From: Acidobacteriota bacterium
GTDB taxonomy: Bacteria; Acidobacteriota; Blastocatellia; Pyrinomonadales; Pyrinomonadaceae
DNA length: 64,000 nt
Assembly: GCA_019239425.1 (NCBI GenBank)
Contig: JAFAZX010000015.1
Span: forward strand, 1-64,000
Direction of reading: 5' to 3'
The notes beneath the pieces are model-generated. The model saw only the letters and a program-made list of their open reading frames with translations. It made no database searches and was not told where the DNA came from. Shown in pieces: positions 34,929-53,966 of this stretch (position 1 is the stretch's first letter; each line of letters opens with the position of its first letter). The position numbers and the translations under genes were made by a program.

Positions 34929-36689
34929 GTGAAAAAGAGAATCACCACCGCGCTCGCGACGCTCCTCCTGCTCGCAGTCTCGCTCCCGGCCTTCGTCATC
35001 GCGCAGCAGAGCGGCGCGCAGCCGCCCGCCACGCGCCGCCCGGCCCCCTCGGTCGGCGACGCCCCGGCGGCCTCGCCCGGCGCGCGCACGCGCCGGCCGC
35101 GCCCGACCGACGCCACCGAGTCGCTTGAGCAGGACGTGGCCGAGGCGCTCACCGTCATCCAGGACAACTACGTCGACGGCAACAAGGTGAAGTACGACGA
35201 GGTCTTCAAGTCCTCGATCATCGGCATGCTGCGCACGCTCGACCCGCACTCGAATTTCTACGACGCGAAGGAGTTCGAGGAGCAGCGCGCCGACTGGCGC
35301 TCGGAGTACTACGGCATCGGCGCCACCATCGGCGACCGCAAGCTCGGCGGCAGCACCGACACCTACATCCTCGCCACCTTCGAGGAGACGCCGGCCTACC
35401 GCGCGGGCCTCCGCTTCGGCGACAAGATCACCGAGATCGACGGGAAGGCCGTCAAGGGCAAGGCCTCGGGCGAGGTGCGCGACATGCTCCGCGGGCCGCG
35501 CGGCACGACCGTCCGCGTGACGGTCGAGCGCGCCTCGAACGCGCAGACCGAGACGGTCGAGATCACGCGCGACGCCGTCCCGCAGCCGACCGTGCCCGAC
35601 GCCTACTTCATCAAGCCCGGCGTCGGCTACATCGACATGACGCGCGGCTTCAACTACACGACGGCCGAGGAGTTCGTCTCGGCCCTGAAGTACCTCCGCA
35701 CGCACGGCATGACCGGACTCGTGGTCGACCTGCGCGGCAACGGCGGCGGCATCCTCGACCAGGCGAAGATCGTGGCCGAGCAGTTCCTCGCCAAAGACCA
35801 GGTCATCCTGACGCAGAAGGGGCGCGGCACGCGCGGCATCCAGCGCGAGCTGGTCTCGGACAACCGCCAGCCCGACCCGACGCCGCTCGTCGTCCTCGTC
35901 AACCGCGGCACGGCCTCGGCCTCGGAGATCGTCGCGGGCGCGTGGCAGGATCACGACCGCGCGCTCATCATCGGCGAGACCTCTTTCGGCAAGGGCCTCG
36001 TCCAGTCGATCATGCCGCTCGAGTACGGCACGGCGCTGACCTTGACGACCTCGAAGTACTACACGCCTTCGGGCCGCCTGATCCAGCGCGACTACTCGAA
36101 CCAGAGCTACTACGACTACATCTACGGCCGCGTCAACGGGACGCAGACCGAGGCGGAGGTCGAGAAGCCGAAGGGCACCGAGACGCACACCGACACCGGC
36201 CGCCCGCTCTACGGCGGCGGCGGCATCTCGCCCGACGAAGCCATCAAGGCGCGCACGCTGACGGCGCCGCAGGTGCGGCTCATCGACCCCATCTTCGCCT
36301 TCGCCCGCGAAGCCGTGAACGGCCGCGTCCCCGGCCTGCCGCAGAGCTTCAAGGTCGGCGGCATGCCCGACTTCGAGCAGAACGTCGAGGCCGGCGCCTT
36401 CGAGGTGGACGACAAGGTCTTCAAGGCGTTCAAGGAGTTCGCCGTCCTGCACTACGGCGAGGAACTGAAGCTGACCGACGCGCAGCTCGACAAGGGGCGC
36501 GACTTCATCGCGCGCCAGCTCCGCTACGACCTGACGACGGCCGCCTACGGCTCGGTCAAGGCGACGCAGGTGCTCATGCTCGACGACCCGCAGGTGGCGA
36601 AGGCCATCGAGTCTCTACCGCGCGCGCGCGACCTCGCCGCCACGGCCATGAAAGGCCGCAACCCGCAGACGAAGACTTTCGAGGAGTAA
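34929..36689 (+). CDS. S41 family C-terminal processing peptidase with PDZ
   Basis: PDZ AYRAGLRFGDKITEIDGK; VVDLRGNGGG; RGTASASEIVAGA; GETSFGKGLVQS. Confidence 0.94.
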   Translation: MKKRITTALATLLLLAVSLPAFVIAQQSGAQPPATRRPAPSVGDAPAASPGARTRRPRPTDATESLEQDVAEALTVIQDNYVDGNKVKYDEVFKSSIIGMLRTLDPHSNFYDAKEFEEQRADWRSEYYGIGATIGDRKLGGSTDTYILATFEETPAYRAGLRFGDKITEIDGKAVKGKASGEVRDMLRGPRGTTVRVTVERASNAQTETVEITRDAVPQPTVPDAYFIKPGVGYIDMTRGFNYTTAEEFVSALKYLRTHGMTGLVVDLRGNGGGILDQAKIVAEQFLAKDQVILTQKGRGTRGIQRELVSDNRQPDPTPLVVLVNRGTASASEIVAGAWQDHDRALIIGETSFGKGLVQSIMPLEYGTALTLTTSKYYTPSGRLIQRDYSNQSYYDYIYGRVNGTQTEAEVEKPKGTETHTDTGRPLYGGGGISPDEAIKARTLTAPQVRLIDPIFAFAREAVNGRVPGLPQSFKVGGMPDFEQNVEAGAFEVDDKVFKAFKEFAVLHYGEELKLTDAQLDKGRDFIARQLRYDLTTAAYGSVKATQVLMLDDPQVAKAIESLPRARDLAATAMKGRNPQTKTFEE

Positions 36690-40708: not shown

Positions 40709-40804
40709 AGGCGGAAGCCCGACCGTGAGGGAGGGCGTCGGTCTTTAATTAAAGCGCGCCCCGCGTTAGTCGAAGCGCCCTCCCTCACGGTCGGGCTTCC
40801 GCCT
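40709..40804. repeat. inverted repeat, family H copy 1; 29-bp perfect arms
   Basis: aggcggaagcccgaccgtgagggagggcg and its reverse complement; inner ctttaattaaag palindrome. Confidence 0.95.
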
Positions 40805-40888: not shown

Positions 40889-41425
40889 TTAGTGGGCGGC
40901 GAGCCAGTCGCTGAAGACCTGCGACTCCTCGTTCTTGCCCGACCAGCGGGCGCGGTTCTTGCCCGTCAGCGCGAGGATCATCGCCTGGTGCTGGCCGGCG
41001 CGGTCGCCGAGCCGCTCGAAGTAGTTGTAGAGCCGGTCGATGCGCGCGACCGATTCGCGCGCCGCCTCGACGTTGCGGAAGTGGAGCACGTTGCGGAAGT
41101 AGCGCGTGTAGACGTTCTGCTCCCGGCCGGTCGTGGTGTAGAGGTCGAAGTAGCCGTCGAGGTGCCCGGCGTGCTGCAAGACCTGCGCGACGTAGGAGGG
41201 CCTGGCCTTCACACGGCGCACGATCTCCGCGATGTCCTTCGTGCCGGACTCGAAGAGCGAGACGATCTGCTCCTTCTTCGTCCGCTGCTCGGCCGGCTCT
41301 AACTCAAAGGTCTCCGCCTGCGCCGCCTCGACGTGCTCGCGCTCCAGGGCCTCGTCGGCGTAGTCGAGCTCGAGCGTGAGCGGCTTCATCTCCTCAAGAA
41401 TCTCTTCGGTCGTCATCGTTTTCAC
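40889..41425 (-). CDS. hypothetical protein, possible HTH, downstream of Rad52-like gene
   Basis: EQIVSLFESGTKDIAEIVRRVKARPSYVAQVLQHAG. Confidence 0.7.
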   Translation of the reverse strand: MKTMTTEEILEEMKPLTLELDYADEALEREHVEAAQAETFELEPAEQRTKKEQIVSLFESGTKDIAEIVRRVKARPSYVAQVLQHAGHLDGYFDLYTTTGREQNVYTRYFRNVLHFRNVEAARESVARIDRLYNYFERLGDRAGQHQAMILALTGKNRARWSGKNEESQVFSDWLAAH

Positions 41426-41437
41426 CCCTTGCTCACA

Positions 41438-41506
41438 GCGAGCAGTAAGCAGTCGTTTAGATGTTTGAGACGGCGAGCAGTTCGCCCCCGACTGCTTACT
41501 GCTCGC
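41438..41506. repeat. inverted repeat, family I (GAGCAGTAAGCAGT), 18-bp perfect arms
   Basis: gcgagcagtaagcagtcg / cgactgcttactgctcgc. Confidence 0.92.
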
Positions 41507-41524
41507 CGCTCACTGCTTACCGTC

Positions 41525-42829
41525 TTAGCTCGCGCGGCGCACCTCGAAGGTCTGCTGGTTCTGCAAGCCCTTGAGGTGGTCGATGAAGCTCGAAGCGGCG
41601 CGCTTCGAAAGCTCCTCGGTGCGGACGCGCATCACCGACTGGCACTCCTCGTCCATGTCCACGCCGGCCTCGCGGGCCAGCGCCCGGATCATGCCGAGCT
41701 GCTTCGGCGTGACGAGGTCGGCCATCGACTTGGCGAGCGGGTCGCGCGGGAAGTCGCCCGGCTGCGGGCCAGAGCCCTCGCGCTCGATGACCTCCGACTC
41801 GCGCTGGTAGAGCTCGCGCGCGATGCCGAACTTGATGGCCGCGCGCTTCAGTGCGTCGTGCTCGGCCTTCTTGATGCCGGTCTCGTTGTCCGCGTTCCCC
41901 GTGCCGACGCCCTCGCGCGTGACGCCGTCGATGGTGATGGCGCAGGTGACGGCGACCATCTCGCCGATCTGGACGATGCCGCGGACGGCGTGCGACCAGG
42001 TGGGGGCGACGCGGTCGAGGATGTCTGCGACGGTGTGCCACTCGACGTACTCGACCATGTGCTGGTTGCCGTTGCGGTCGCGCCAGCCCTCGCGCGTCTT
42101 GATGAGGCGCGGGTCGACCGGCTGCTTCAAGGTGCCCAAGGTCTTCGCGAAAGAGAGCGGCACCACGGGCGCGCTCGCCTGCTGCTCGTACTCTTCGGCG
42201 GTGATGAAGTCCTGCTCCTCTTCCGCCTTCTGAACGTGTGCGGTTGCTTTCTTCGTCATCTCTAGCTCCTCTGTCTCTTCGTATTCCGCGAGCGAACGCT
42301 GAGGAGTCTTGACGGCGTTGGCGATGAACTCGACCTCCGACGCCTTGACCTCCGGCTGCTCGTTCTGCTCCCGTACGAAGCGCGGCGCTTTGCGCGGGGC
42401 ACGAAGCGTGGCCTCCGCGGCAGCCTCGCCGAGCTTCTCGGATGCGGTCTGTGTCAAAGTGTTGGGCGTCTCCGCCGCAACAACGTTCTCGGGAGTCGCG
42501 CCCTGCGCCTGCGGGGCGGAAACCTGTGTGGCGGCGGCCTGCTGCTTGGCGGCGGCCTCCGTGTTCTTCGCGAGCACCGCGTGCTTGACGGCGAGGATGT
42601 GCTCGCAGCGGTAGCGCGCGTCCTGGGCCGACTGCTCCTCGAACTCAAGGCAGGTGCAGCGCACCCGGCCCGCCTCGTCGCGCCAGACCTCGTAGGAGGC
42701 GCGCCGTCCCCGGAGGGTCGGCGTGGTCACGCGGAAGCGGTCGCCCTCGCGGTTCACCAGACCCATCGCGGCGATCCCTTGAGCGCGCTTGTCGCGCATC
42801 AAAGCTTTCTTGTCGAGTACGGCAGTCAT
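41525..42829 (-). CDS. SWIM zinc-finger plus Rad52-family single-strand annealing protein
   Basis: CTCLEFEEQSAQDARYRCEH (CxCxnCxH); VEYVEWHTVADILDRVAPTWSHAVRG...GVGTGNADNETGIKKAEHDALKRAAIKFGI. Confidence 0.85.
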   Translation of the reverse strand: MTAVLDKKALMRDKRAQGIAAMGLVNREGDRFRVTTPTLRGRRASYEVWRDEAGRVRCTCLEFEEQSAQDARYRCEHILAVKHAVLAKNTEAAAKQQAAATQVSAPQAQGATPENVVAAETPNTLTQTASEKLGEAAAEATLRAPRKAPRFVREQNEQPEVKASEVEFIANAVKTPQRSLAEYEETEELEMTKKATAHVQKAEEEQDFITAEEYEQQASAPVVPLSFAKTLGTLKQPVDPRLIKTREGWRDRNGNQHMVEYVEWHTVADILDRVAPTWSHAVRGIVQIGEMVAVTCAITIDGVTREGVGTGNADNETGIKKAEHDALKRAAIKFGIARELYQRESEVIEREGSGPQPGDFPRDPLAKSMADLVTPKQLGMIRALAREAGVDMDEECQSVMRVRTEELSKRAASSFIDHLKGLQNQQTFEVRRAS

Positions 42830-42861
42830 GGCCTTAATCCTCCGAACCTGTCAGAAACTCT

Positions 42862-43068
42862 TCAGGCGGCCTTCTCGGTCGGCATCTGCTTGACGACGAC
42901 GCGCTCGGCCGCTTCGGGCTGCGGGCCGAACCCGGCGCGCTCCTGCAGGCGACGCTCAAGCTCGACGACACGCGCCTCCAACTCCTCGACGCGGCGGCCC
43001 TGCCGGTGCAGGGTCTTGAACAGCCCGTCGAACGTCTCCCAGATCACGTCGCTCACCTTCTGTTTCAC
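42862..43068 (-). CDS. small coiled-coil protein
   Basis: VEELEARVVELERRLQER; first gene of the Rad52 operon. Confidence 0.65.
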   Translation of the reverse strand: MKQKVSDVIWETFDGLFKTLHRQGRRVEELEARVVELERRLQERAGFGPQPEAAERVVVKQMPTEKAA

Positions 43069-43107
43069 TCCTTGCGTTCAGAGTCGCCGCATGTTTACTG
43101 CAACGCT

Positions 43108-43127
43108 CTGTTTCATACGTGAAACAG
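43108..43127. promoter_or_regulatory. palindromic operator candidate CTGTTTCA-TACG-TGAAACAG
   Basis: 8-bp perfect half-sites between divergent XRE and Rad52 operons; extra TGTTTCA half-site just upstream of the 43068 start. Confidence 0.65.
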
Positions 43128-43265
43128 TGTACCAGCGTTCCCGGTTTGTTGCAAGCATAAAACAAGGTCTTGCGCAGGAAATTTTCTTGTGCTATGTTGG
43201 GGGCTGCAAAGGTGGGCGCCGGAGTCCGTGTAGGGATTCCGGAAGGCCCGCGAAGGAGGCCGAAA

Positions 43266-43694
43266 ATGGCAGAACAGTCGAAAAGTTTAGTGAACACGGT
43301 CGAGCTGGGGCGCGCCATCCGCCGCAAGCGCGAGGAGCTTGGGCTTTCGCTGAGGGACGTGGCGAACGAGACGCGGGTCTCGGCCTCGACGCTCTCGCGC
43401 ATCGAGAACGGCACGGGCAAGCCCGACGCCGACAACATCGCGCGCCTGACGGGCTGGCTCGACATGCCGATGGAGCGCGTGATGGGCGCGCGCAAGACGG
43501 AGGAGGGCACGGACACCTCGGCGGTCGTCTACTTCCCGCACGAGGCGACGCCCGACATCGTCGAGGCGCATCTGCGCGCCGACCGCAACCTCACGCCCGA
43601 GACGGCCAAGGCCCTCTCCGAACTCTTCCGCGTCGCCTACCAACAGTTCTCCGCGCCCGGCACCGACGCCCGCGCCCGCAAGAACCGGAAGTAG
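43266..43694 (+). CDS. XRE-family transcriptional regulator
   Basis: IRRKREELGLSLRDVANETRVSASTLSRIENGTGKPDADNIARLTGWL. Confidence 0.92.
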   Translation: MAEQSKSLVNTVELGRAIRRKREELGLSLRDVANETRVSASTLSRIENGTGKPDADNIARLTGWLDMPMERVMGARKTEEGTDTSAVVYFPHEATPDIVEAHLRADRNLTPETAKALSELFRVAYQQFSAPGTDARARKNRK

Positions 43695-43729
43695 CGACAG
43701 GCAGTTTCAGCACCGAAGTTCTACAAACG

Positions 43730-43762
43730 AGGGCGCTCAACTCAAGGCGGGTTGAGCGCCCT
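43730..43762 (+). terminator. hairpin terminator of XRE gene
   Basis: agggcgctcaac / gttgagcgccct. Confidence 0.8.
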
Positions 43763-43788
43763 TGTCACATCAAGAGGAGACCATAGAA

Positions 43789-44136
43789 ATGGCTAGCATC
43801 CAAATCGTCAAAATTGACGAGGACAAATCTCACTTCTCTGACACCAATCCTTCTTATGTACTTGTTTTGTCAGGCAAGCCTGACCAGAACTGGAAGGGTC
43901 AGCTTGAAGCTGTTTTTACGCAGAGCAAGAACAGCCAAATTCTGAACCTTCACGTTGACGGTAACCGCGGCAATGAACTGGTGCTTGATACCAGAAAAGA
44001 CGTAACCCCTGAGCAAATGTTGGAAACAGTGCAAGGGCTTGTCGCAAAGGTGAATAGTCAGGAGGAAGAGTTTAAGAACAAGCTCAGGGAACTGAATAAG
44101 AAACTAACTGCCTCAGAGGGCGAGACTTCGACTTAA
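43789..44136 (+). CDS. hypothetical protein, compositionally atypical (AT-richer)
   Basis: MASIQIVKIDEDKSHFSDTNPSYVLVLSGKPDQNWKGQLEAVFTQSKNSQ. Confidence 0.75.
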   Translation: MASIQIVKIDEDKSHFSDTNPSYVLVLSGKPDQNWKGQLEAVFTQSKNSQILNLHVDGNRGNELVLDTRKDVTPEQMLETVQGLVAKVNSQEEEFKNKLRELNKKLTASEGETST

Positions 44137-44239
44137 AATTTAGCCTGCCCGTCCGCTAATGTCTGCCGGCGGGCAGAGTGGCGAAAGCAACGTGTAAACC
44201 TCGCAGGGAAATAGCTAGGAGGGGCGAAGGAGAAGAGAA

Positions 44240-44713
44240 ATGTCAGAGAAGGTAAAGCCAATACCGGACGGTTACCACAGCGTGACGCCTTATCTGATTG
44301 TGGACGGGGCGGCGCGGGCGATTGAGTTTTACAGGGAGGCGTTCGGGGCGAGGGAGTTGTTTCGGATGGAGGGGCCGGGCGGGAAGGTCGCGCACGCCGA
44401 GATACAGATTGGGGACTCGCGCGTAATGCTCGGCGACGAGCACCCGCAGGTCGGGGCGCGCGGGCCGCGTTCGTTCGGCGGGTCGCCCGTGGGGCTCACG
44501 CTCTACGTCGAGGACGTGGACGTGACCATGGCGCGGGCCTTGGAGGCCGGGGCGAAGTTGACGAGGCCCGTGGCCGACCAGTTCTACGGCGACCGCACGG
44601 GCGGCTTCGAAGACCCGTTCGGGCATTCGTGGTACGTCGCCACGCACGTCGAGGACGTTAGTCACGAGGAGTTGCAGAAGCGCGCCGCCGCGGCGCACGG
44701 CGGCGGCGAGTAA
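44240..44713 (+). CDS. VOC/PhnB-like glyoxalase protein
   Basis: VTPYLIVDGAARAIEFYREAFGARELFRMEGPGGKVAHAEIQIGDSRVMLGDE. Confidence 0.9.
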   Translation: MSEKVKPIPDGYHSVTPYLIVDGAARAIEFYREAFGARELFRMEGPGGKVAHAEIQIGDSRVMLGDEHPQVGARGPRSFGGSPVGLTLYVEDVDVTMARALEAGAKLTRPVADQFYGDRTGGFEDPFGHSWYVATHVEDVSHEELQKRAAAAHGGGE

Positions 44714-44747
44714 GAGTTAAAGGCAGCGGCGAGCAAGGGGAAGTTGT

Positions 44748-45599
44748 TTGCAGTTCAAGGCGATTTACGGCGTCGATTTCAGCGGCGCGCGTCTGGCGGG
44801 GCGGAACACCTGGGTCGCGCGGATTGAGAAGAAGAAGAGAAGTGAGGGGTGTCAGAGTCCCTGGCGTCTGTCGGAGCTGGCGCGGCTCGAAGATTTGTGC
44901 GGGACAGCCGAAAGGGCCGAGGCCCTGGGCCATCTCGTCGAGTTAATAGGGGAGTCGGAGGGCGCGCTCTGGTCTCTGGACTTCCCGTTCGGGATGCCAG
45001 TGGAGGTTTTGGGAGAGCGTTGGGGAAAGCAGTTTGAGTTCATCGGCGAGTGGGGCGAGGACGGCTACGGGGCCGGGCTGGAATGCGTGCGGCGTTCGAA
45101 GGAGTTGTGCGGGGCCAAGCACATCCGCCGCCTGACCGACATCGAGGAGCGCGCGCCGTTCGACCCGTACCACTACCGCATCATCTACCAGACCTTCCAC
45201 GGCATGCGCGACGTGCTCGCGCCGCTCATGCGCCGACGCCACACGGCCATCCTTCCTTTTCAGTACAAACGTCTGCCGAACGCGCGCCGCGTCCTCGTCG
45301 AAGCCTGCCCGGCCTCGACCTTGAAGCGCATGCGGCTCCCGCACCAGAACTACAAGCAGCCCGAGGGCGGGCCGCTCACGCCGAAGCGCCGCCGCACGCG
45401 CCGCCGTATCCTCGAAGGTCTCGCGCCGCACGTCTGCATCCGCCCCACCGACCGCCTCCGCATCATGCGCAACGGCGGCGGCGACGCCCTCGACGCGGTG
45501 CTCGCGGCCCTCGGCGCCGCACGCTCCTGGCGCGAGACCGACCACGCCTCCGTCGCCAGGCACCGACGCTACCCGCGCGAAGGCAGGCTCTACGTTTGA
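44748..45599 (+). CDS. DUF429-like predicted nuclease
   Basis: YGVDFSGARLAGRNTW...LWSLDFPFGMP...VEACPASTLK...GGGDALDAVLAAL; TTG start. Confidence 0.75.
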   Translation: MQFKAIYGVDFSGARLAGRNTWVARIEKKKRSEGCQSPWRLSELARLEDLCGTAERAEALGHLVELIGESEGALWSLDFPFGMPVEVLGERWGKQFEFIGEWGEDGYGAGLECVRRSKELCGAKHIRRLTDIEERAPFDPYHYRIIYQTFHGMRDVLAPLMRRRHTAILPFQYKRLPNARRVLVEACPASTLKRMRLPHQNYKQPEGGPLTPKRRRTRRRILEGLAPHVCIRPTDRLRIMRNGGGDALDAVLAALGAARSWRETDHASVARHRRYPREGRLYV

Positions 45600-45648
45600 G
45601 TTAGATTCGATAGCGGAAAAGTCACGCGGGGCGGGTATAATTCGGGCC

Positions 45649-46326
45649 GTGGACACGGAGAATCTGCCGCCGACTTTTAAGGGGAGACAGTACGAGGTGC
45701 GCGCCCTGGGGTTGCGCGACTTCGCGGGGCTGCGCCGGGAGGACGAGGCCCTCGACCCGTTCGAGCTGGCCTACTTCGCGAGGTTGATGGTGATCAACTT
45801 CGACGAGATCGCGGGGCTCTCGGAGGAGACGCGGGAGCACCTTCTGGGCGTGGGCGTGAACGACTGGTCGGGCGGGACTTCGTCCAGGGCGCTGCCGAAC
45901 GGCTGGCGGCTCATCATCCTCAACCCGAAGCACGGGAAGTCGCGGAACAACGCGACGCTGATGGAGGAGGTCTGCCACGTCTTCCTCGGGCACAGGGCGA
46001 ACCGGCTCTCGATTGTCGCGCAGAACAAGCAGGGGAAGACCGTCGCGCGCGACTACAACGAGGCGGACGAGGAGGCCGCGTACGCCGTGGGCGCGGCGGC
46101 GCTCGTGCCGTTCGCGGGGCTGCGGAAGCTGCTCAGGCAGAACAAGACTTCCATCGAGATGGCGCGTAACTTCAACGTGAGCAGGGAACTCATCGAGTAC
46201 CGCCTGAAGGTCTGCCGCCTCTGGGCCGAGTACCGCCAGCGCCACCCCGAAGAGGACGCCGCGCGCGAGCAGCGCCGCCGCGCCTTCGCCGCCGCCAACG
46301 CCGAACGCAACGCGGGGGCGGACTAG
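45649..46326 (+). CDS. ImmA/IrrE-like metallo-endopeptidase family protein with variant motif
   Basis: LMEEVCHVFLGHRANRL...NEADEEAAYAVGAAALVPFAGLRKLLRQNKTSIEMARNFNVSRELIEYRLKV; GTG start. Confidence 0.82.
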   Translation: MDTENLPPTFKGRQYEVRALGLRDFAGLRREDEALDPFELAYFARLMVINFDEIAGLSEETREHLLGVGVNDWSGGTSSRALPNGWRLIILNPKHGKSRNNATLMEEVCHVFLGHRANRLSIVAQNKQGKTVARDYNEADEEAAYAVGAAALVPFAGLRKLLRQNKTSIEMARNFNVSRELIEYRLKVCRLWAEYRQRHPEEDAAREQRRRAFAAANAERNAGAD

Positions 46327-48366: not shown

Positions 48367-49503
48367 ATGAGGACGGACGGCAGTTCGCCCGAGAAGCTCA
48401 GAGAGCTGCGCGACGAGGTCAAGCGCTGCATCGACTACCGCGCCTTCTACCTGCGGTACTGCCCCGAGGCGCGCCAGAGCGGCGCGCGCCTGCAATCGCT
48501 CTGCCCCATCCCCGCGCACGCGCACAGCGGGAAGGGGCACCCCAGCCTCTCCATCGATCTCCAGCAGGGGCTCTTCAACTGCTTCTCGCGCGACGAGGGC
48601 GGCGACGCCATCACCTTCTACGAGCTGATGCACGGCGTCAGCTACGCGCGCGCGGTGAGGGAGCTTGCGCGCGAGCTGGGCCTGGACGGGAGAAAGGGCC
48701 GGCGCCCTTCGCTCGCCTCGGCGTCGGCGCCGGACGCCTCCGAAGCGGAGGGCGAGAGCTTCGAGCCGCTCGACGCGGAGCAGACCGCCGAGGTCTGCAC
48801 GCGCTTCCTTGAGATCTGCCGGGCCGAAAATCAGTTGGAGGGCACGGCCTACCTCGCGCGCCGCGGCATCGACGCCGCGACCGCCCGCCGCGCGGGCGTC
48901 ACGTACTTCCCGCGCCGCGCCTACCGCCGCGTCATGCGCCGTGTGTCGGACAGTTTCCCGGTCGAGACGCTCCGGCGCGCGGGCCTCTTCAACCGCAAAG
49001 AGCACCTGACGTTCTATCATCACCGCCTGCTCTTTCCGTTCTACGTCAACGGCCGGCCCGTCTACTTGCAAGCGCGCACGACCGCGGCCGGCGTCGAGCC
49101 GCGCTGGCACAACATGCGCGGCCACGTCCCCGCGCTCTACAACGCGGACTCCCTGCCCGAACTTCAGAGCGGCGCAATCGTCTACCTCGTCGAAGGCTTC
49201 ACCGACACGCTCACGCTCCTCGCGCACGGCTTCGCGGGGGTCGGACTCGTCGGCGCCGGCGGGCTGAAAGGCGATTGGCTCGCGCCCTTGGGCCGCTTCC
49301 GCGTCGTCGCCGCGCTCGACCCGGACGCCGCCGGGCGCAAGGCCTCCGCACGCTACCGCGAACTCTTCCAGGCGCGCGGCCTGGCGCTGGCGGTCATCGA
49401 ACTCCCCTCCGACATCAACGACCTCTTCCGACACCACCCGGCCGCGGCTTTGGAGTTGGAGCTTTTGACCGAGAAAGCTCTGGAAGAGATCGGCAAAGAC
49501 TGA
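48367..49503 (+). CDS. CHC2/TOPRIM primase-like protein
   Basis: IDYRAFYLRYCPEARQSG..LCPIPAHAHSGKGHPSLSIDLQQGLFNCFSRDEGGDAITF; VEGFTDTLTLLAHG; ALDPDAAGR. Confidence 0.85.
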   Translation: MRTDGSSPEKLRELRDEVKRCIDYRAFYLRYCPEARQSGARLQSLCPIPAHAHSGKGHPSLSIDLQQGLFNCFSRDEGGDAITFYELMHGVSYARAVRELARELGLDGRKGRRPSLASASAPDASEAEGESFEPLDAEQTAEVCTRFLEICRAENQLEGTAYLARRGIDAATARRAGVTYFPRRAYRRVMRRVSDSFPVETLRRAGLFNRKEHLTFYHHRLLFPFYVNGRPVYLQARTTAAGVEPRWHNMRGHVPALYNADSLPELQSGAIVYLVEGFTDTLTLLAHGFAGVGLVGAGGLKGDWLAPLGRFRVVAALDPDAAGRKASARYRELFQARGLALAVIELPSDINDLFRHHPAAALELELLTEKALEEIGKD

Positions 49504-50539: not shown

Positions 50540-51835
50540 ATGGCCGATGAGATAGCGAAAGCTGGTGCGGAGACCGAGTGCCTGACCCTGGCGGACAAGC
50601 TGCGCATGCTGCTTGAGATCACCAGGAAGATCAGCCGCTCGCTCGACCTCGAAGAGGTGCTGGCGCAGGTGATGGACACGCTCGACCAGCTCCTCCCTTA
50701 CGACGCCGCCGGCATCTACATCATCCGCCGCGACCCGCACGCCTCGGAGGGCGGCACGGCCTCGCTCGTCTTCCACGCCGAGGCCGTCCGCGGCTACGAC
50801 ATCGAAGAGCTGATGGAACTGCGTCTCAGGCTGGGGCAGGGGCTCATCGGCTGGGTCGCGCAGACGGGCGAATCGGTCGTCGTCCCCGACGTGCGCAAGG
50901 ACGCGCGCTACGTCAACGCGCGCAAGGAGACGCGCTCCGAGGTCGTCGCCCCCATCATCTCGAACGACTCGGTGATCGGCGTCTTCGACCTGGAGTCCGA
51001 CGACCTCAACGCCTACACCGAGGAGGACAAGCAGCTCCTCATGCTGCTCGCCTCGCAGGTCGCCATCATCGTCGAGAAGGCGATGCTCCACGAGCAGCTC
51101 GTCGAGAAGAAGCGGCTGGAGGCGCAGCTCGAAGTCGCCCGGCAGGTGCAGCTCGCGCTCCTGCCCGAGCGCGACCCGGAGGTGGACGGCTTCGACATCT
51201 CCGCCTACAACTTCTCGACCGAGGAGGTCTCGGGCGACTACTACGACTTCGTCAAACCCTACGAAGACCACGTCGGCCTCGTCATCGCCGACGTGTCGGG
51301 GAAGGGCGTGCCGGCGTCGCTGCTGATGGCCTTCCTGCGCGCCAGCCTGCGCGCGGCCATCCACACCGGCTACGCGCCGAACGTCGCGATGGCGAAGGTC
51401 AACTATCTGCTGTGGGAGTCCATCGACCCGCACCAGTTCGTGACCTGTTTCTACGGCATGCTCGACGCGACGAACCGGACGCTGGCCTTCGTCAACGCGG
51501 GCCACAACCCCCTGCTCATCCTCAACCCCGACGGCCCGCGCTTCATCGAGCGCGGCGGCCTCCCGCTGGGGCTGTTCAAGGACACGCGCTACTACGAGTA
51601 CTACCTGCCCATCGACTCCGGCCAGATTCTCGTCCTCTACACCGACGGCGCGACCGAGGCGCAGAGTCCGGAGGGGCAGGAGTACGGCCGCTCGCGCCTC
51701 GTGGACGCCGTCCGCCGCAGCCGCGACCTCAGCGCCCGCAAGATGATCGACTACATCTACAACGACATCTTCGACTGGACGGGCGGCCGCGGCTCCGGCG
51801 ACGACGTGACGTTCGTGGTGATAAAAGCTCTTTGA
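50540..51835 (+). CDS. GAF domain SpoIIE-family protein phosphatase (RsbU-like)
   Basis: GAF AGIYIIRRDPHAS...; VSGDYYDFVKPYEDHVGLVIADVSGKGVPASLLMA; LYTDGATEA. Confidence 0.93.
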   Translation: MADEIAKAGAETECLTLADKLRMLLEITRKISRSLDLEEVLAQVMDTLDQLLPYDAAGIYIIRRDPHASEGGTASLVFHAEAVRGYDIEELMELRLRLGQGLIGWVAQTGESVVVPDVRKDARYVNARKETRSEVVAPIISNDSVIGVFDLESDDLNAYTEEDKQLLMLLASQVAIIVEKAMLHEQLVEKKRLEAQLEVARQVQLALLPERDPEVDGFDISAYNFSTEEVSGDYYDFVKPYEDHVGLVIADVSGKGVPASLLMAFLRASLRAAIHTGYAPNVAMAKVNYLLWESIDPHQFVTCFYGMLDATNRTLAFVNAGHNPLLILNPDGPRFIERGGLPLGLFKDTRYYEYYLPIDSGQILVLYTDGATEAQSPEGQEYGRSRLVDAVRRSRDLSARKMIDYIYNDIFDWTGGRGSGDDVTFVVIKAL

Positions 51836-53841: not shown

Positions 53842-53966
53842 GGGCAGAAGCCCGACCGTGAGGGAGGGCGTAGGTCTTACCATAAAGGAGGATGAGAGGC
53901 AGCGTGCTTCTCATCCTCCTTTTTATTGTTGCTTCGACGCCCTCCCTCACGGTCGGGCTTCTGCCC
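53842..53966. repeat. inverted repeat, family H copy 2; 30-bp perfect arms with nested 14-bp hairpin (53884-53922)
   Basis: gggcagaagcccgaccgtgagggagggcgt and reverse complement; inner aaaggaggatgaga/tctcatcctccttt. Confidence 0.96.

Follow-up and report, generated by a model that had tools for sequence, protein, structure and literature searches.

A candidate IrrE/DdrO-like switch for a LexA-independent, SOS-like damage regulon in Pyrinomonadaceae

Acidobacteriota are among the commonest bacteria in soil. To our knowledge, the type of switch formed by the XRE-family repressor DdrO and its metallopeptidase partner IrrE (PprI) is known as a host DNA-damage response only from the Deinococcus lineage. 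Close homologues of IrrE and DdrO have been placed only in the Deinococcus/Thermus phylum, and other COG2856/XRE pairs are often encoded by mobile elements (PMC8072749). The locus described here lies in a 64-kb window (the whole stretch of 64,000 nucleotides that was analysed), the start of a 112-kb contig (JAFAZX010000015.1) in a 7.45 Mb genome of the family Pyrinomonadaceae (GCA_019239425.1). In it, an XRE-family regulator gene (xre; 43266..43694, plus strand) is divergent from a minus-strand operon encoding a small coiled-coil protein, a SWIM-Rad52 protein and a protein of no recognized family (orfA). The gene of an ImmA/IrrE-like protein of the M78 family (immA; 45649..46326, plus strand) follows 2 kb beyond, and then genes for a DnaG-like primase and a GAF-SpoIIE phosphatase. 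An initial annotation of the stretch had named the XRE, SWIM-Rad52 and ImmA/IrrE-like genes and a primase at 48.4 kb, all of which were recovered at or near their proposed positions, and had suggested that a damage-response switch of the IrrE/DdrO kind may exist beyond Deinococcus. Operators in front of recA, ruvB and other repair genes strongly support that suggestion. We consider it probable that in Pyrinomonadaceae, and in part of the remaining Blastocatellia, the locus is the master switch of a LexA-independent, SOS-like damage regulon that works in the manner of IrrE/DdrO but with an antirepressor that has diverged. The evidence drawn from sequence comprises the order of the genes, the conservation and positions of the operators, the set of genes that carry them, the co-occurrence of the two proteins and the EExxH motif of the ImmA-like protein. 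Such a system was not described in the open-access literature searched, whether for DdrO/IrrE with Acidobacteria or for Blastocatellia with recA and LexA, nor did a paper on DNA-repair regulation in Acidobacteriota turn up.

Operators at xre, rad52 and other repair genes

Two operators were identified between xre and the rad52 operon. O1, a perfect 20-bp palindrome (CTGTTTCATACGTGAAACAG; 43108..43127), lies over the predicted start of the operon, and O2 (TTGTTGCAAGCATAAAACAA; 43146..43165) begins exactly 38 bp after O1; the initial annotation had noted the first, which is real, and missed the second. The predicted rad52 promoter (TTGCAA-17-TACACT, minus strand) has its -35 box (43149..43154) within O2 and its -10 box (43126..43131), which is retained in relatives, touching O1. 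The predicted xre promoter (TTGCGC-17-TATGTT, plus strand; boxes at 43170..43175 and 43193..43198) follows immediately past O2. Across the family, the 38 bp spacing was found in every XRE/Rad52 promoter with both sites, with drift in the bases between them, and a genus designated g3 has, 48 bp farther on, a third operator (O3) that overlaps the xre -10 box. The general form of the operator is TGTTKCA-N4-TGMAACA. As judged from the predicted promoters, the O1/O2 arrangement is the layout of a repressor serving both of them. Within the window genome CTGTTTCATACGTGAAACAG has no other perfect match, and allowing up to three mismatches returned 14 sites compared with 3 for a control pattern.

The initial annotation had proposed a genome scan for the palindrome upstream of other repair genes, and the scan placed sites at recA, ruvB and others, both in this genome and in relatives, so that the operator is not confined to the locus. 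For this analysis a matrix was built from XRE|Rad52 promoters only, leaving out the genome under test, with a threshold score of 13 or more. A site above this threshold was present upstream of recA in 13/15 genomes by the leave-one-out matrix, to which the window genome adds one (14/15), whilst only 7/1067 other genes in the related loci carried one, some of which seem to be true members. The recA site of the window genome scored 23.2 and lies ~107 bp before the gene; the usual distance of the site from the recA start codon is ~95-100 bp. Seven of the 14 near matches in the window genome (three mismatches or fewer) scored 15 or more, the remaining seven scoring 10.8 or less, and six of the high-scoring sites precede the rad52 operon, recA, ruvB and genes for a Sak4-like ATPase (PHROG 3.4e-5), a WGR protein and a small SWIM-like protein. 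Targets in relatives included imuA-like genes, ruvA, rmuC, a RecQ-family helicase, a PA0069-type radical SAM protein, AAA/RecA-like ATPases and DinB-family genes. Three genomes outside the matrix gave similar sets: sites were found at recA, imuA-like, DinB-family and PA0069-type radical SAM genes in G251, at ruvA, recA, a UvrD/PcrA-like helicase gene and a DinB-family gene in G243, and at ruvA, recA and umuD-umuC in G283. With one mismatch at most, 19 genomes yielded 102 sites compared with 24 for the control, and the window genome 6 compared with 1; scans with two mismatches barely exceeded the control in several genomes, and therefore only results from the matrix and from one mismatch or fewer were used.

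Two of the target families displayed further features. The window genome encodes two RuvB paralogues that are 73 % identical, on contigs C14 and C6, and only the C14 copy has an operator. In at least five genomes the operator of the PA0069/Rv2578c-type radical SAM gene lies at the start of the gene or a few bases from it.

The XRE regulator and its proposed ImmA/IrrE-like partner

The XRE protein (142 aa; HTH_3 1.3e-14), which we propose as the master repressor, has orthologues in 23/297 Acidobacteriota genomes. An N-terminal helix-turn-helix (HTH) domain is followed by helices at residues 95-105 and 111-129, the regulator architecture expected of an IrrE/DdrO system, and the best fold match of its model (mean predicted local confidence, pLDDT, 70.6) in the Protein Data Bank was a weak one to DdrO (6jq1, E 1.8e-3). 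The ImmA-like protein (225 aa), the proposed inactivator of XRE, is assigned to the Peptidase_M78 family (PF06114 3.3e-12; 46.7 bits against a curated cut-off of 22). Its AlphaFold2 model reached a pLDDT of 90.6, and the best structural match was IrrE (3dte, 1.6e-4).

In place of the HExxH active site of IrrE, the ImmA-like protein of the window reads EEVCH. An unbiased profile search recovered EE[VI][CS]H in the window protein and in 13/13 orthologues, whereas HExxH is intact in other M78 proteins that these genomes encode. Residues E106, E107, H110 and E142 were invariant in 63 aligned ImmA-like sequences, some of which had been retrieved by a search pattern containing the motif itself. EExxH is shared by a few more distantly related pairs in which an XRE-like gene lies alongside, which on this comparison indicates an old variant rather than a product of decay. 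The initial annotation had pointed to proteolysis of the XRE protein as in Deinococcus; as HExxH is invariably EExxH, with a Glu for the first His in every orthologue, cleavage cannot be assumed and that part of the proposal is unsupported.

All 23 XRE-bearing genomes also encode the ImmA-like protein, whether or not the genes are linked. The two genes are adjacent in several genera and families; in genus g3 they are unlinked yet both kept, with immA away from xre and beside nuoI-like and GAF-SpoIIE genes. This retention of both genes after their separation is informative. In the window, three genes separate xre from immA, namely an AT-rich open reading frame (G+C content 0.45 compared with 0.66-0.69 for the rest), a glyoxalase gene and a DUF429 gene; they are probably later insertions, since several relatives have few or no genes there.

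Genus g3 also encodes a second M78 protein of ~150 aa with a canonical HE[FL]AH motif, seen at eight loci. Its gene in several cases adjoins a different XRE-like gene (characterized by '...ARR[IL].VPHAT[IV]RNY..GR.PAP..LI'), and an operator-like site lies near it in genomes G251 and G189.

Proposed switch and alternative explanations

We propose that in the unstressed cell XRE, presumably as a dimer, would sit on the TGTTKCA-N4-TGMAACA palindromes. Since O1 spans the predicted rad52 operon start and touches its -10 box, while O2 spans the -35 box and lies shortly before that of xre, XRE would repress both the annealase operon and itself. Through the same operator it would control recA and, depending on the genome, ruvA/ruvB, imuA/umuDC, uvrB, a PcrA-like helicase gene, rmuC, recQ, a DinB-family gene and others. 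The ImmA-like protein is probably constitutive, as its gene has no operator of its own in the window. Upon damage it would remove XRE, either binding it as an antirepressor or cleaving it with a metal site of the unusual composition Glu-Glu-His-Glu; by analogy with Rir/Crh, cleavage-free antirepression would suit EExxH at least as well as cleavage. The trigger, modelled on PprI, may be single-stranded DNA, as described for PprI (PMC10904395) and CapP (PMC13373217), or free zinc, which has been raised as a possible signal (PMC7907104). When the damage is over, autoregulated XRE would close the regulon again. A more far-reaching version, which we offer tentatively and hold to be less likely than not, would place a complete SOS-equivalent regulon (recombination, translesion synthesis and excision repair) under XRE, with an M78 partner that has lost the canonical protease motif and acts as a non-proteolytic damage-sensing antirepressor, and with imuA also taken over in genus g3, whose genomes mostly lack LexA.

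Several observations weigh against the proposed switch. The first zinc-binding His of M78 peptidases is replaced by Glu, although the second Glu, the second His and the downstream Glu are kept, so that the motif of an active metallopeptidase is incomplete. The C-terminal domain of XRE has no sequence similarity to DdrO, the alignment covering only residues 13-74; the XRE model is only moderate and the TM-scores (template modelling scores) of all fold matches were low, and the matches of both proteins are therefore support rather than proof. The co-occurrence counts are not phylogenetically independent, and shared ancestry inflates 23/23. Membership of the regulon varies between genomes except for recA (the ruvB site is present in only 1/15), and even the recA site is weak in G009 (11.3). 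The seventh high-scoring site of the window genome, on contig C40, has no assigned target gene, and several sites precede genes without an obvious repair role, in keeping with a background rate near one in four. Two weak sites in G251, one 300 bp ahead of uvrB and one near an SRAP gene, mark only possible members. A canonical LexA is also present in the window genome and may hold part of the control; binding, induction and loss of the repressor are all predictions from sequence.

If the palindrome were a LexA box, xre and rad52 would be mere LexA targets with classical SOS in charge. The SOS-like target list would fit, as would the presence of canonical LexA in the window genome, Pyrinomonas and genera g2, g4 and g6. 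LexA usually autoregulates, yet all canonical lexA promoters inspected were free of operator-like sites, in contrast to the xre|rad52 promoters. The operator is retained at xre in three genomes without a LexA match (G189, G149 and G009), and in G189 and G149 at recA as well. Likewise, in g2, g4 and g6 lexA stands beside imuA and no operator was found there, whilst the imuA-like genes of genus g3 carry one. Because of the operators at xre promoters, the operator-free lexA promoters and the operators kept in LexA-less genomes, we infer that the sites belong to XRE; LexA was rejected as the operator binder on the latter two grounds, and classical SOS control is very improbable. About as improbable is an activating or mixed, rather than repressing, action of XRE on the repair genes. 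In its favour, the recA site lies mostly ~95-100 bp before the start codon, and the XRE protein DdiA of Myxococcus reportedly raises dnaE2 expression (PMC12288472). Yet O1 on the predicted rad52 operon start, O2 on its -35 box and, in g3, O3 on the xre -10 box are the usual placement for repression, and DdrO sites likewise lie at or near transcription starts (PMC8072749).

A decayed prophage or other mobile-element module (repressor, ImmA, annealase and primase), the alternative named in the initial annotation, draws on how often phages and conjugative elements encode XRE/COG2856 pairs and Erf/Rad52 annealases (PMC8072749) and on the match of the Rad52 protein to Erf-like PHROG families. Against this, M16 peptidase and glyoxalase-like genes recur as chromosomal flanks of XRE|Rad52 in relatives, the gene order orfA-rad52-cc | xre - immA - primase (cc, the coiled-coil gene) is found in Pyrinomonas and at ~15 named loci, and the locus and its operator spacing are conserved in many genomes. 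Searches of 50,697 phage records and 72,556 plasmids and a scan of viral contigs yielded nothing related to the Rad52 protein, and the regulon consists of chromosomal housekeeping repair genes. Syntenic flanks, rather than mobile-element neighbours or a variable location, indicate by comparison of gene order that the locus is chromosomal and vertically inherited within Pyrinomonadaceae, and the prophage module was ruled out on flanks, operator spacing and the missing phage, plasmid and viral-contig relatives, its probability being close to negligible. An unlikely alternative of a different kind keeps XRE in charge of the repair regulon and denies the ImmA-like protein its role as inactivator, with damage sensed through another partner or ligand, for example the GAF-SpoIIE neighbour. 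It gains from EExxH, which makes peptidase activity doubtful, and from the distance of immA from xre in genus g3, where nuoI-like and GAF-SpoIIE genes are its neighbours. It accounts poorly for the unbroken co-occurrence of XRE and ImmA, linked or not, for their direct adjacency elsewhere, and for the action of known COG2856 proteins on paired XRE repressors, in one case reportedly without cleavage (Rir/Crh; PMC7907104).

Neighbouring genes and comparison with known systems

The operon opposite xre begins with the coiled-coil gene (42862..43056, minus strand; 64 aa), whose Pyrinomonas orthologue is 79 % identical over 38 aa. The SWIM-Rad52 annealase follows (41525..42829, minus strand; 434 aa). 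Its Rad52/Rad22 assignment is clear (PF04098 6e-10; 39.7 bits against a curated cut-off of 20.3; residues 233-346), and its top profile matches were generic Rad52 and phage Erf-like annealases (PHROG Erf-like annealase 2.9e-8). The SWIM part scored 18.8 bits, slightly below the cut-off of 19.6, with a CxC...CxH signature at residues 54-85, and is lacking in the genus g3 orthologues. The last gene, orfA (40889..41416, minus strand; 175 aa), has orthologues just after rad52 in Pyrinomonas (68 % identity), in G009 (62 %) and at ~15 named loci; no match was found among Pfam, PHROG and NCBIfam models, and the 'possible HTH protein' of the initial annotation is thus not established. Comparison with Pyrinomonas favoured the starts at 43056 for the coiled-coil gene and 41416 for orfA.

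Beyond immA, the DnaG-like primase gene (48367..49503, plus strand; 378 aa; TIGR01391 1.7e-29, below cut-off) is a conserved neighbour, adjoining immA in most loci of the subgroup and in Pyrinomonas; PADLOC matched it to its RTasDnaG-like model for defence-associated reverse transcriptases (DRT; 7.9e-53). The GAF-SpoIIE phosphatase gene (50540..51835, plus strand; SpoIIE 1.4e-47, GAF 6.2e-20), a possible accessory, is a neighbour of immA in other genera too and follows it in genus g3, where immA is unlinked from xre. Elsewhere in the window, a large inverted repeat with CCCGACCGTGAGGGAGGGCG arms is present in two copies (40718-40795 and 53851-53957) and is probably a repeat element or terminator. 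A gene pair at 15868-16285 encodes a small DUF7387 protein, HicB-like by position, and a HicA toxin (HicA 5.4e-18). An Rfam search of the window returned nothing; ARAGORN called a tRNA-Ser (cga) on the minus strand (35519-35592) inside an S41 peptidase gene, a call that is probably false given the absent Rfam tRNA match.

In sum, these results describe a family of mostly uncultured Acidobacteria in which recA and other repair genes are apparently under a small repressor with an IrrE-like partner, instead of or beside LexA. If this is correct, IrrE/DdrO-like control of a host damage response extends beyond the Deinococcus lineage, it can coexist with LexA or stand in for it, and an M78 partner can dispense with the textbook active site in its evolution. 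The analysis also supplies a defined operator and a cultured organism, Pyrinomonas methylaliphatogenes K22.

Among described systems, LexA/RecA SOS resembles the proposed regulon in the function of its target set; the regulator here is an XRE protein and not an S24 LexA, and none of the lexA promoters inspected carried the operator. DdiA of Myxococcus xanthus (PMC12288472) is likewise an XRE protein in a LexA-independent damage response, although the passages on DdiA in that source report no peptidase partner. CapH/CapP of the cyclic oligonucleotide-based antiphage signalling system (CBASS) also combines an HTH repressor with a peptidase and responds to DNA damage (PMC13373217), but controls an adjacent immune operon; PADLOC gave only a generic HTH and a weak capH match (2.4e-7) for the XRE protein here and no match for the M78 protein. 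In Rir/Crh of Streptococcus thermophilus a COG2856 protein relieves an XRE repressor, reportedly without cleavage, but Rir retains a predicted HEXXH and the pair serves prophage regulation (PMC7907104). ImmR/ImmA of ICEBs1 and comparable pairs from phages or elements share the combination of XRE with a small GAF-less M78 protein; they control mobile-element excision, whereas the locus here is chromosomal with host repair targets. IrrE/DdrO of Deinococcus differs in phylum, in the HExxH that is EExxH here and in its operator, the radiation/desiccation response motif, which we take to be distinct from the palindrome described above. The targets here are also wider and more SOS-like, including ruvA/ruvB, imuA and umuDC. 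IrrE carries its GAF-like domain in the same protein; the M78 protein here, in which only Peptidase_M78 exceeded the cut-off, has no such C-terminal domain, and the window has GAF in the neighbouring SpoIIE phosphatase, encoded by a separate gene. IrrE/DdrO and the present locus have in common an XRE regulator with a COG2856/M78 protein, a palindromic operator at the promoter of the regulator itself, at recA and at other repair genes, an operator-free protease-like gene, and coexistence with LexA (in Deinococcus: PMC8072749).

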